DNA from: Pedobacter sp. HMWF019
GTDB taxonomy: Bacteria > Bacteroidota > Bacteroidia > Sphingobacteriales > Sphingobacteriaceae
DNA: 46,801 nt
Assembly: GCF_003061025.1 (NCBI RefSeq)
Contig: NZ_QAIL01000043.1
Location: 1-46,801 of the forward strand
Direction: 5' to 3'
Shown here piece after piece: positions 1,659 through 13,578 of the stretch. Position numbers and translations under genes: made by a program. The notes below the pieces were generated by a model that searched no databases, was not told the DNA's origin, and saw only the letters and a program-made list of their open reading frames with translations. Numbering within the stretch: the stretch's first letter is position 1; every line of letters starts with the position of its first letter.

Positions 1659-2438
1659 TTAAAGTTCCCTTACCCAGATGTTGCGGAAACTGATGGGTTC
1701 GCTTTTATCTCCATGTGCCTGTAATTTGATGGGAGATGGACCGTGTGCTTTTCGGTATGCAGGTAAGCCAACGTATTGGGTTGGACCTTTCAATTCGAAA
1801 TTATTTTGTACAATGATTCCGTTAAACAGTACGGTAACCTTTGCTGGTGATTTCAGTGAACTGTCTGCATTAAAAACAGGTGCTGTCCAGATTACATCAT
1901 AGGTCTGCCATTCACCAGGTTTCTTTGCTGCATTGAACATTGGCGTGTTTTGTTTGTAGATACTGCCCGCCATTCCATTGGTATAGGTTTTATTGTTGTA
2001 GGAATCCAGGATTTGCAGTTCGTAGCCTAAATCTCCTTTGCCTATCGAGGCGAGGAATAGTCCGCTATTGCCTCTTAACTGGCCTTCTCCTGTGATGTTC
2101 GCAGGAACTTTCCATTCCAGGTGTAGCTGGTAATTGCTAAAGGATTGTTTGGTTTCAATATTTCCTGTTTTCTTGTCTACTGTTAAAATACCTCCTGAAA
2201 CTTTCCATTTGGCTGGCTGGGACCGGTCGTCTGTCATCACCCATTGATCCAGGTTTTTACCATCAAAAAGAACAATCGCATCGGATGGTGCGTCTGAGTT
2301 GGTTTTTCCTGGTGTTACAACATTAGGTACCGGGGTGTAAAACTCTGTGTCTTCGTGTTTGGCTTCCTGTGCGGTTGCCATGGACACACAACCAGCAATA
2401 AGGAGCGCAGCACTGAAAAAGGATTTTTTTGCATTCAT
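1659..2438 (-). CDS. Secreted DUF1080 (3-keto-disaccharide hydrolase domain) protein
   Basis: 259-residue exported protein with one DUF1080 / 3-keto-disaccharide hydrolase domain from about residue 50 to the end. The opening IVLFDGKNLDQWV and the closing ISFRNIWVREL are characteristic, and the concanavalin-like core is seen around LHLEWKVP and GNSGLFLAS. The N-terminus is a signal peptide. ATAQ near residue 24 looks like a signal peptidase I site, but IAGC at 14-17 also fits a lipobox, so it may be a lipoprotein. Family members act on glucosides or keto-disaccharides in the periplasm or at the cell surface; the substrate here is unknown. Upstream lies a ~650-bp non-coding region with repeats. 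Confidence 0.88.
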   Translation of the reverse strand: MNAKKSFFSAALLIAGCVSMATAQEAKHEDTEFYTPVPNVVTPGKTNSDAPSDAIVLFDGKNLDQWVMTDDRSQPAKWKVSGGILTVDKKTGNIETKQSFSNYQLHLEWKVPANITGEGQLRGNSGLFLASIGKGDLGYELQILDSYNNKTYTNGMAGSIYKQNTPMFNAAKKPGEWQTYDVIWTAPVFNADSSLKSPAKVTVLFNGIIVQNNFELKGPTQYVGLPAYRKAHGPSPIKLQAHGDKSEPISFRNIWVREL

Positions 2439-2496
2439 AACTGTTAAATGTAATTAGCTAGACAATATAAGAGTTTTGAAGATAAAAGCTGGTTGA

Positions 2497-2618
2497 AAAA
2501 TCAATATTACTCTTCGGAGACTACGCTTTCTGCGCGTCGCTGCGCGACATGCTTCGAAAGCTGAGGTCTCCTCTGAGTAATATTGATTTTATATGGCGCT
2601 TAATTGGGGGGAGTCCGG
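2497..2618 (+). repeat. Palindromic intergenic repeat, copy A
   Basis: A ~122-bp element. Its first 94 bp fold into a long hairpin: perfect 16-bp outer arms (2497-2512 with 2575-2590), then GGAGAC/GTCTCC (2516-2521 with 2566-2571), GCTTTC/GAAAGC (2525-2530 with 2556-2561) and an apical GTCGC/GCGAC stem. A GC-rich tail ending GTCCGG at 2618 follows. Copy B is in opposite orientation and shares the outer-arm sequence, the CTGAGGTC segment and the tail. The shared ends and near-equal length argue for one repeat family, possibly a REP- or MITE-like element or a structured RNA. Confidence 0.7.
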
Positions 2619-2698
2619 GTATGGCGCAGAAAAGGTTATGCAATTTGTTCTTGTCTTTTGTTTATAGAACTCAGGATATGTAAAGTCATGTAAAATAA

Positions 2699-2870
2699 AA
2701 CACAGACAAATCCATTGTTAAGATATATCAGAACGAGATAAGATTGCCGTTCGATCTTTTGGCTGCTACGGATATATTAATTACAGAAGACGTAGGTGTT
2801 CTTAGAAAAAATTATGACTATAAATTGAAGCATTGTGCCGTCTCGTTTCCAATTTTGGCCTATGCTATGG
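2699..2870 (+). pseudogene. Possible decayed fragment resembling a CDP-glycerol glycerophosphotransferase
   Basis: An open frame without a good start begins after a stop at 2696-2698. Its translation contains LLAATDILIT followed about 22 residues later by PILAYAMD. That pattern recalls the SDILITDYSS ... PIIFYAYD region of CDP-glycerol glycerophosphotransferases from memory of the family. The frame then runs into repeat copy B and loses resemblance to a protein. No flanking domain is present. The match is short and could be chance, so this is a tentative call. Confidence 0.22.
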
Positions 2871-2879
2871 ACTCCCTTT

Positions 2880-3002
2880 CCGGACACCCCGCCCGGTTAT
2901 GCGCCCAAAAAAATAATATTACGCAGAGAGGACCTCAGGGCGCCTTGTCACAAGAGCGAAGCGGGGCAAGGAGTCCAGTCCTCGAAGAGTATATTATTTT
3001 TT
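2880..3002 (-). repeat. Palindromic intergenic repeat, copy B (inverted)
   Basis: A ~123-bp element, inverse of copy A. Outer arms pair 2908-2919 with 2991-3002, then GAGGAC/GTCCTC (2928-2933 with 2978-2983), with CCTTG/CAAGG (2943-2947 with 2967-2971) inside. The second stem differs from copy A (GGAGAC/GTCTCC) on both sides at once, so pairing is preserved. The GC-rich tail lies at 2880-2906, ending at CCGGAC (reverse of GTCCGG). Loop sequences are diverged. Confidence 0.7.
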
Positions 3003-3060
3003 ATCAGCAATTCCTTTATTATATACCTAGTTAATAGGCTGATATATCGATTAAAAATCA

Positions 3061-3090: not shown

Positions 3091-4899
3091 ATGCAAAAAA
3101 TAAGAAATATAGCTATCATAGCACACGTTGACCACGGTAAAACTACGCTGGTTGATAAGATTTTACACACTTGTTCTATTTTTCGTGACAACGAACAAAC
3201 AGGTGATTTAATACTTGATAACAACGATCTTGAACGTGAACGGGGAATTACTATTGTTTCCAAAAACGTTTCAGTAAGATACAAAGACTATAAAATCAAT
3301 ATTATTGATACTCCTGGTCACGCGGATTTTGGCGGTGAGGTAGAACGTGTATTGAAAATGGCTGATGGTGTTCTTTTATTATGCGATGCTTTTGAAGGTG
3401 CAATGCCTCAAACCCGTTTCGTTACTCAGAAAGCACTAGCATTGGGATTAAAACCAATTGTAGTTGTAAATAAAGTAGATAAAGAAAACTGTCGTCCGGA
3501 AGAGGTTTATGAGCAGATATTTGAATTGTTCTTTAACCTGGAGGCTACAGAAGAGCAGCTTGATTTCCCTGTGATCTATGGTTCATCTAAACAAGGATGG
3601 ATGAGCACAGACTATACCAAGCCAACTACTGATATTTTCCCTCTTTTAGACGCGGTAGTAGAACACATCCCTGCAGCACCGATCAATGAAGGTACTTTAC
3701 AAATGCAAATCACCTCTTTAGATTATTCTTCTTTCGTAGGTCGTATTGCAATTGGTCGTGTTCACCGCGGTATAATCAGAGAAAACCAGCCGGTTACTTT
3801 GATTAAACGTGATGGCAAGATGGTAAAATCAAGAGTAAAAGAATTATACGTTTTTGAAGGTCTTGGAAAAATCCGTGCACAGGAAGTGAGTTCAGGAGAT
3901 ATTTGTGCTGTTGTAGGTATTGATGGTTTCGAAATTGGTGATACTATTGCTGATTTTGATGCACCGGAACAATTACCTGTAATTAAAATTGATGAGCCAA
4001 CAATGAACATGTTGTTCACCATCAATAACTCTCCTTTCTTCGGTAAAGAAGGTAAATTTGTTACTTCTCAGCGTATTAAAGAACGTTTGTACAAAGAGAT
4101 GGAGAAAAACCTTGCCTTAAAGGTTGTAGAAACTGAGTCTCCTGATTCTTATCTGGTTTATGGAAGGGGTATTCTGCATTTATCTGTATTGATCGAGACC
4201 ATGCGTCGCGAAGGATATGAGATTCAGGTAGGTCAGCCACAAGTAATCGTTAAAGAAATTGACGGTAAAAAATGTGAGCCGGTTGAAACCCTGATTGTTG
4301 ATGTACCGGGTGAGGTTGCCGGAAAGGTAATTGAACTGGTTACACAACGTAAAGGTGAATTGTTGATCATGGAGCCAAAAGGTGATTTACAGCATTTGGA
4401 ATTCGAAATTCCTTCACGCGGAATCATTGGACTAAGAAATAATGTGTTGACTGCAACAGCAGGAGAAGCAATTATGGCGCACCGTTTTAAATCTTATGAG
4501 CCTTGGAAAGGTGTAATTCCCGGAAGGTTAAATGGTGTATTGGTTTCCATGGATAAAGGTACAACTACTGCTTATTCTATTGATAAATTGCAGGACCGTG
4601 GTCGTTTCTTCGTTGATCCGGGAGTAGACATTTACGAAGGTCAGATCCTGGGTGAGCACATCCGTGATAACGATTTAGTTGTAAATATTGTTAAAGGTAA
4701 AGCCCTAACCAATATGCGTGCTTCTGGTACTGATGATAACACACGTATTGCACCAGCAATTAAGTTTTCATTGGAAGAGGCTATGGAGTATATCCAGGCT
4801 GATGAGTATATCGAAATTACTCCAGTAAGTATGCGTTTACGTAAGATCTATCTGACAGAGAATGAGCGTAAGATCAATGCTAAAAAATTCCAGTCTTAA
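3091..4899 (+). CDS. typA: Translational GTPase TypA/BipA
   Basis: 602-residue ribosome-associated GTPase, full length for the family. The G1 loop AHVDHGKT is at residues 11-18, followed by the switch region ERERGITI, the G3 motif DTPGHADFGG and the G4 motif NKVD. The later elongation-factor-like domains and the BipA C-terminal domain (SRGIIGLRNNVLTATAGE, then MDKGTTTAYSI) are intact. TypA binds 70S ribosomes and supports ribosome assembly and stress or cold adaptation. It is monocistronic: a promoter lies just upstream and a strong terminator follows within 60 bp. Confidence 0.97.
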   Translation: MQKIRNIAIIAHVDHGKTTLVDKILHTCSIFRDNEQTGDLILDNNDLERERGITIVSKNVSVRYKDYKINIIDTPGHADFGGEVERVLKMADGVLLLCDAFEGAMPQTRFVTQKALALGLKPIVVVNKVDKENCRPEEVYEQIFELFFNLEATEEQLDFPVIYGSSKQGWMSTDYTKPTTDIFPLLDAVVEHIPAAPINEGTLQMQITSLDYSSFVGRIAIGRVHRGIIRENQPVTLIKRDGKMVKSRVKELYVFEGLGKIRAQEVSSGDICAVVGIDGFEIGDTIADFDAPEQLPVIKIDEPTMNMLFTINNSPFFGKEGKFVTSQRIKERLYKEMEKNLALKVVETESPDSYLVYGRGILHLSVLIETMRREGYEIQVGQPQVIVKEIDGKKCEPVETLIVDVPGEVAGKVIELVTQRKGELLIMEPKGDLQHLEFEIPSRGIIGLRNNVLTATAGEAIMAHRFKSYEPWKGVIPGRLNGVLVSMDKGTTTAYSIDKLQDRGRFFVDPGVDIYEGQILGEHIRDNDLVVNIVKGKALTNMRASGTDDNTRIAPAIKFSLEEAMEYIQADEYIEITPVSMRLRKIYLTENERKINAKKFQS

Positions 4900-13062: not shown

Positions 13063-13578
13063 TTATTGGGCGAAGCTTTTCTCGATCCTGTGCAATTGTT
13101 TCAAATGGTGCTTCAAATGGATCTCTGTAAACCGGAGCCATTGCTTTGCATTCAGGTAACCTAGTCTGGGATGTTTGGACTTAACATTGTCCCTGGCCCT
13201 TGGGATTTGTTTGTAATCTGCTTCCAGTTGTTTTCCAAATTGACTGACCAGGTCTTGTGCTTCTTCTTTGGTGATGACTTTTACCCGGCCTTCCAGTTGT
13301 TTAGGGATTTTAAACCGTCCCGGAGGCAAAGCGCCAAAGAAAAGAATAAGCTTTACGGTAAATGCAGTAGGCTTATCCTTTCCTTTTCCATTCAGACAAT
13401 CTTCCATGGCCTGCAGTGACAAGCAGCTTGCATCAAAAATGTGCGCGTATACTTCACTGTAAGACCAGCCACCGATGGGAGGCGTGGTCCGGAACTGGGC
13501 ATCACTGAGGCTTTGCAGTTTGTCGCTGTAAGCATCTGAAATCCTTTGCAGGGAAGAGAAAATGGTGTCTGTATTCAT
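13063..13578 (-). CDS. DinB-family protein
   Basis: 171-residue four-helix-bundle protein of the DinB/YfiT superfamily. The putative metal ligands are His residues in VYAHIFD and in HLKHHLKQLHRI near the C-terminus; the family usually binds a divalent metal with three His. GGWSYSEVYAHI is the characteristic motif. The frame extends seven codons upstream to 13599, but the ATG at 13578 sits one base after the stop of the DUF4476 gene and begins the conserved region, so I prefer it. Members act as thiol transferases or have unknown functions. It is the last gene of a five-gene minus-strand run. Confidence 0.8.
   Translation of the reverse strand: MNTDTIFSSLQRISDAYSDKLQSLSDAQFRTTPPIGGWSYSEVYAHIFDASCLSLQAMEDCLNGKGKDKPTAFTVKLILFFGALPPGRFKIPKQLEGRVKVITKEEAQDLVSQFGKQLEADYKQIPRARDNVKSKHPRLGYLNAKQWLRFTEIHLKHHLKQLHRIEKSFAQ

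Follow-up and report, generated by a model that had tools for sequence, protein, structure and literature searches.

The window, by which we mean the whole analysed stretch of 46,801 nucleotides of Pedobacter sp. HMWF019 DNA (contig NZ_QAIL01000043.1), contains two members of a family of tailed, two-stem hairpins that is dispersed through the genome of this bacterium and of related bacteria and is built on a common plan. On balance, we regard these elements as probably a clade-specific set of dispersed DNA hairpins that have the habit of REP and BIME repeats, are RAYT-less, and would be mobile by way of an enzyme outside the Y1 group. The initial annotation had proposed a MITE or REP-like mobile element or a family of structured RNAs, and this was right in kind, as judged from the further copies, the relatives in other genomes, the covariation and the inverted pairs described below; the link to a RAYT transposase that it also suggested did not hold up.

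The two hairpins of the window, copies A and B, are real and related. In a global alignment of A (2497-2618) with the reverse complement of B (2880-3002), 89 of 129 columns are the same and the score of 114 lies 10 standard deviations above that of dinucleotide shuffles of B (n = 500; mean 27.5, s.d. 8.5, maximum 51). Both also fit the covariance model of the family, at 126 bits for A and 125 bits for B, although the alignment behind that model includes A and B themselves. Free folding gives z scores of -6.7 and -6.6 against shuffles for copy A and is weak for copy B (-1.2 and -1.8). The blocks first noticed in the two copies (the outer arm, CTGAGGTC and the tail with GTCCGG) are present in both, as is the inner stem altered on both strands (GGAGAC/GTCTCC in A, GAGGAC/GTCCTC in B); the reported extents captured two inverted copies, with ends that the model places slightly further out (Table 1). 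The tails of A and B face each other inward and their hairpins outward, and the pair sits between two divergent genes, one for a hydrolase (-) and the other typA/bipA (+). A search of 29 related typA loci gave no element match at E<=1, and no covariance model of Rfam 15 matched the window at the curated cut-off. Elsewhere in the window, the model matches positions 13311-13389 (-) weakly (20.6 bits, E 0.0064), which may reflect a degraded element or chance.

Table 1. Features of the hairpin pair and its surroundings in the window
Feature	Positions	Strand	Evidence
Copy A, subtype A, complete element, hairpin followed by tail	2489..2628	+	R2 126.3 bits, E 1.2e-27; R1 131 bits
Copy A, outer stem 5' arm, A-tract base	2497..2512	+	fold; inverted repeat I1
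Copy A, outer stem 3' arm, T-tract base	2575..2590	+	fold; inverted repeat
Copy A, second stem, CTGAGG side and variable tip	2516..2571	+	fold; conserved columns
Copy A, G-rich tail	2593..2628	+	model alignment; common to other copies
Copy B, subtype B, full element, inverted; hairpin towards typA, tail towards A	2870..3010	-	R2 125.0 bits, E 2.4e-27
Copy B, G-rich tail	2870..2906	-	model alignment
Unshared DNA between both tails	2629..2869		no match in 133 other host loci; 2744-2879 without Pfam match
Flanking 3-keto-disaccharide hydrolase family gene, reads away from A	1659..2438	-	PF06439, E 1.2e-43
Flanking typA/bipA gene, reads away from B	3091..4899	+	PF21018 BipA_C, E 2.3e-44; PF00009, E 1.7e-57

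When the host genome (6.9 Mb in 624 contigs) was queried with A and B, many further copies were recovered, belonging to subtypes A and B, which have the outer stem and tail in common and differ in the tip. Subtype C, which adjoins several A and B copies, gave 42 matches, fragments included, and a covariance model made from 20 A and B copies also recovers the C copies along with subtypes D and E and a number of singletons. The list that we kept holds 91 places and at least five subtypes; it was compiled manually, leaving out echoes of the palindrome on the reverse strand, matches to the tail alone, short fragments of element ends and weak matches, and a few of its starts are misplaced by as much as about 7 bases. 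A family of about 90 copies in the host genome thus stands behind the original pair, and the many dispersed copies, together with the score of A against B relative to shuffles, rule out a local chance duplication. This dispersal suggests that the elements are mobile. The exact motif of subtype C found no match in two public collections, outside of which the host genome possibly lies.

All of these elements follow a plan in which a base of five A opposite five T leads into an outer stem with some 15 base pairs. A small internal loop, in which UUC often faces UCU, separates this from a second stem with some 6 base pairs, above which are an asymmetric loop (CUGAGG in subtypes A, B and C) and a variable tip hairpin. 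A tail rich in G, some 40 nt long, lies 3' of the hairpin and the 5' end is AT-rich, so that by eye the two ends of the element look unlike. The general model, R2, has 143 positions with 23 pairs and the tip. Covariation, which had been noticed from two copies, proved to be strong at the stem pairs in both genome sets: among 53 matches in the host genome, including a few to the tail alone, 21 of the 23 pairs change on both sides and the covariation is 0.62 as compared to 0.17 when shuffled, and among 106 matches in other genomes all 23 pairs do so, with covariation of 0.54 as compared to 0.15. These values are far above shuffles and slid controls alike, in alignments that were fitted to the model and hence favour its structure. 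The innermost pair is a conserved U-G (78/106 copies elsewhere and 45/53 in the host genome), and the five basal pairs, A on the 5' side and U on the 3' side, are all present in 79 of the 106 copies from other genomes, with at least four of them in 102.

Strong covariation alone is no proof of an RNA. The paired change in the inner stem of A and B, from which maintenance by selection or recent common origin had been supposed, is genuine and is by itself not evidence for RNA, since arm-to-arm copying or recognition of folded DNA may also account for it. Under selection for RNA folding, G-U pairs would be expected as common intermediates. Over 22 of the 23 pairs (the innermost U-G excluded), the 106 copies from other genomes hold 2127 Watson-Crick, 13 G-U and 42 A-C or C-A cells, which puts G-U at 13 of 2140 standard cells (0.6%), and the frequency is no higher where the next gene is co-directional (2 in 568). 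For comparison, PMC5381666 reports for the terminators of Bacillus cereus that GU makes up 4.02% of the ancestral stem pairs and AU-GC 79% of the switches; the AU-GC class makes up 274 of 526 departures in the hairpin stems studied here. The scarcity of G-U may in part be a product of the search, which used a model derived from Watson-Crick-rich copies and retained best matches only. In the host genome the counts are 1035 Watson-Crick, 28 G-U (28/1063) and 15 A-C or C-A, and because G-U there exceeds A-C and C-A the argument for DNA-level upkeep fails in that genome. Taking both sets of genomes together with the prevalence of double stem changes and the complement-closed internal loops described further below, we lean towards upkeep of the arms at the level of DNA, by recognition of a folded strand, by copying from arm to arm, or by both.

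The siting of the elements was judged against genes that were defined by a mechanical rule as long open frames. For 105 copies from other genomes an upstream gene could be called, and 96 of these copies sit 3' of that gene in the sense orientation; 77 of the 96 begin no more than 36 nt past the stop codon, and some contain that codon within their outer stem. The median upstream distance over all copies is 12 nt, and 67 of 104 copies face a convergent gene. The p value for the sense bias overstates its certainty, as the 106 copies were taken from the top-scoring matches of related genomes and lack independence. Along 400 kb of one relative, taken without selection, 5 of 8 copies (matches at E<=0.05) are in sense, or 4 of 5 among the strongest (E<=0.001), and extrapolation from these counts gives roughly 80-120 copies for that 6.2-Mb genome. 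By eye, the upstream genes appear to be unrelated apart from a few orthologs, one of which, apparently the same gene in each case, bears a copy in four genomes and so points to retention. The host genome differs, in that copies occur at both gene ends and gene starts and sense counts are 5/13 for subtype A, 8/17 for B and 15/29 for C (plus one C copy with no callable gene), or 28 of 59 for the three together, as compared to 15/20 for the other subtypes. A sense-only RNA element can therefore be rejected for the host genome, given the lack of bias in A, B and C. The hairpin end is the one closer to a gene in 51 of 67 host copies.

Neighbouring copies have a preferred arrangement. Among 19 host pairs no more than 700 bp apart, 16 are convergent (tail to tail), 3 are tandem and none is divergent, and elsewhere the corresponding numbers are 10, 2 and 0. 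The partners mix subtypes (A with B in the window, C with B in C77, C with A in C284, and C with E in C549 and C63), for which reason the A and B pair does not resemble one mobile unit. What had been described as a 261-bp core between them is merely the DNA that separates two independent copies: when positions 2629-2869 were compared with 133 other loci of the same genome, some of which overlap, nothing matched at E<=1e-3, and the one 45-aa frame tried (2744-2879) has no Pfam match. The mixed partners and the unmatched interior dispose of a composite transposon with a 261-bp cargo.

Our preferred reading, that of a mobile DNA hairpin, would accommodate these features in the following way. The folded single strand would be recognised and copied by an enzyme outside the Y1/RAYT family, and the arms would stay complementary partly through arm-to-arm copying. 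The A/T-tract base may in addition stop transcription, which would favour the retention of copies at gene ends. In the host genome, copies of subtypes A, B and C have proliferated and lack a sense bias, and the position of the window pair between divergent genes is in keeping with this. The sense bias in other genomes and the strand-specific conservation of the loop letters could equally reflect a role as RNA.

An RNA or terminator role is indeed possible, and its stronger version, that the elements are in essence elaborate intrinsic terminators or structured RNAs of the 3'-UTR whose dispersal is secondary, is an alternative that we consider doubtful yet worth serious attention. According to it, the A5/T5 stem would halt transcription, from either side where genes converge, or shield the 3' end of the mRNA, and the conserved loops would bind an RNA-binding protein. 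The layout in other genomes, a stem and then a U-tract downstream of genes, is that of a terminator, and this reading draws further support from the sense orientation and the start close to the stop codon, the basal A/U pairs, the frequent location between convergent genes, the conserved U-G at the innermost pair and the excess of G-U over A-C and C-A in the host genome. The A-tract, stem and T-tract are those of bidirectional intrinsic terminators, which likewise often lie between convergent genes, but the elements are far longer than these, have a conserved apical domain, and are followed by terminators in their own right at about the usual rate. A canonical terminator still occurs within 150 nt after 31 of the 106 copies, as compared to 29 of 97 gene ends taken regardless of elements from 400 kb of one relative (16/34 convergent and 13/63 co-directional), and these numbers give no clear signal that the elements substitute for normal terminators. 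The low G-U content in other genomes relative to the B. cereus terminators also argues against this alternative, as do the absence of a sense bias in host subtypes A, B and C and the host copies that lie between divergent genes, those of the window included.

An improbable alternative is that the elements are passive repeats, spread by ordinary recombination and slippage with template switching to keep the arms paired, and that they have neither a dedicated enzyme nor a function. In favour of this are the tandem modules of the tail and the duplication seen in contigs 513 and 56, where L004 1655-2053 and L008 1781-2178 share a 400-bp segment, made up of interior and the adjacent C copy, at 95.5% identity, the similarity stopping near the 5' end of the C element; here a larger unit has been copied. 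Also in its favour are internal loops that have been closed by a stretch almost exactly complementary to the opposite arm (L044, L045, L188 and L189, by eye) and the manner in which copies with tips at least 85% identical differ in their stems, which is mostly by double changes (in the host, 595 double paired and 252 single changes, 94 of the latter via G-U; elsewhere, 896 and 382, of which 53 via G-U). The conserved letters of the loops (CTGAGG and others), the A5/T5 base, the siting at stop codons and the orientation with the head to the gene are, on the other hand, hard to explain without recognition or selection.

Evidence for a resident mobilizer was sought between convergent copies and among the loci at large. 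We looked at 16 intervals between convergent copies, 8 of them longer than 500 bp. Five open frames from such intervals, four of them elsewhere and one in the host, matched BON, DUF6266 or nothing significant in Pfam, so that none of these five is a transposase carried by a pair. In a search for a full-length relative with matching ends, the longest segment common among 33 loci was 400 bp. At L182, L289 and L300, convergent elements bracket similar open frames of 111 aa, one of which was compared with Pfam and had no significant match.

The distribution of the elements is narrow. At E<=0.001, R2 matches 47 of 145 genomes of the genus, the host included (46 of 144 others), 30 of 399 genomes in a sample of the family, all of them from this genus (1 of 25 genera), and the host alone in a sample of the phylum (1 of 395 genomes; 1 of 170 genera). 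Depending on the scan, the models were applied to 8, 22 or 150 candidates per genome (22, 8 and 8, respectively, in these three surveys), and with so few candidates scored the absences outside the element-bearing genomes are soft. DNA queries with subtypes A and C found nothing in 98 other genomes of the genus, with at most 8 candidates scored in each. A search of an open-access library with a limited set of terms returned no account of such a hairpin family in this genus.

Several known repeat families invite comparison. BOX-type modular repeats of streptococci are of similar length, intergenic, compared with MITEs and devoid of a transposase of their own. The ERIC and RU repeats (RU-1 has 127 bp), compared here by description, share this length, intergenic location, likeness to MITEs and lack of their own transposase, but their hosts are enterobacteria, unlike Pedobacter. 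The closest resemblance in habit is to REP, BIME and REPIN repeats, which are likewise high-copy, intergenic, hairpin-forming, located beside 3' ends (a siting seen here in other genomes) and found as inverted dimers; PMC3733652 describes REPs as high-copy and intergenic, often within 20 bp of 3' ends, paired in inverted orientation and able to supply a stop codon. They differ in being palindromes of 20-40 bp, as compared to the 143-position model given above with its two stems, conserved internal loops, A/T-tract base and G-rich tail.

That the elements are REPs proper, moved by a RAYT (TnpA-REP) transposase, is nevertheless very improbable. Their REP-like siting and inverted dimers would suit such an origin, as would a Bacteroidetes group of Y1 transposases, subclass 2.6, that is flanked according to PMC6006769 by "atypical secondary structures" with copies elsewhere; these structures, compared with ours by description, flank a Y1 gene, whereas no Y1 gene was found here. 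PF01797 (Y1) has no match in the host genome at E<=1 and is present in just one of the 47 element-bearing genomes, where there is a stop inside the gene, as compared to 82 of the 98 others, so the search for the suggested transposase came back empty from the host and from 46 of these 47 genomes. In a typA phylogeny of 30 genomes, those with Y1 and those with the element form two separate clades, and the contrast therefore represents one or a few evolutionary events; five members of the element clade (G097, G017, G023, G022 and G013) have neither element nor Y1. The tags of REPs are also not consistently present. On the hairpin side, GTAG and CGTC are not enriched (GTAG in 7/106 and 3/53 copies, against a background of 0.05-0.06 per window), and on the tail side GTAG occurs in 16 of 53 host copies with 6.7 expected, which favours a REP origin, but is absent from the other 37 and in other genomes occurs in 13 of 106 with 16.2 expected. 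The absence of Y1, the separate clades and the lack of a consistent GTAG largely refute RAYT-driven REPs.

REP repeats are explained by RAYT, and here a family of similar habit is detected only in a RAYT-poor branch, with one exception that is a broken match, while the other branch of the genus has the enzyme and no detected copies of the element. A speculative elaboration of the mobile-hairpin reading, which we offer tentatively, is that one clade swapped RAYT and REP for an independent mobile hairpin, whose enzyme would read the two-stem folded strand and deliver it head first to gene ends, with the base serving as a portable terminator. The pattern raises the question of which agents besides RAYT are able to disperse hairpin repeats, and of whether the REP habit may be created by selection that favours hairpins at the ends of genes and not by a transposase.

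Other observations concern the surroundings of the copies. With Rfam at a relaxed E-value, the sole match above cut-off in sets of 7 and 18 further loci was a TPP riboswitch close to a B element (L011 1674-1762 (+), 72.8 bits), and no known Rfam family covers the elements in these loci or in the window. The tail also occurs apart from the hairpin in short tandem arrays beside elements, with units of about 80-130 bp made up of a unique part and a tail (L006 1640-1890, L007 1640-2240, L013 1640-2215, L002 1640-1877 and L011 1380-1550), and several contigs of the host assembly terminate within such arrays. The end of C319 (L016) and the start of C295 (L045) share identical sequence, and these two contigs are probably neighbours joined through a convergent pair of B elements.
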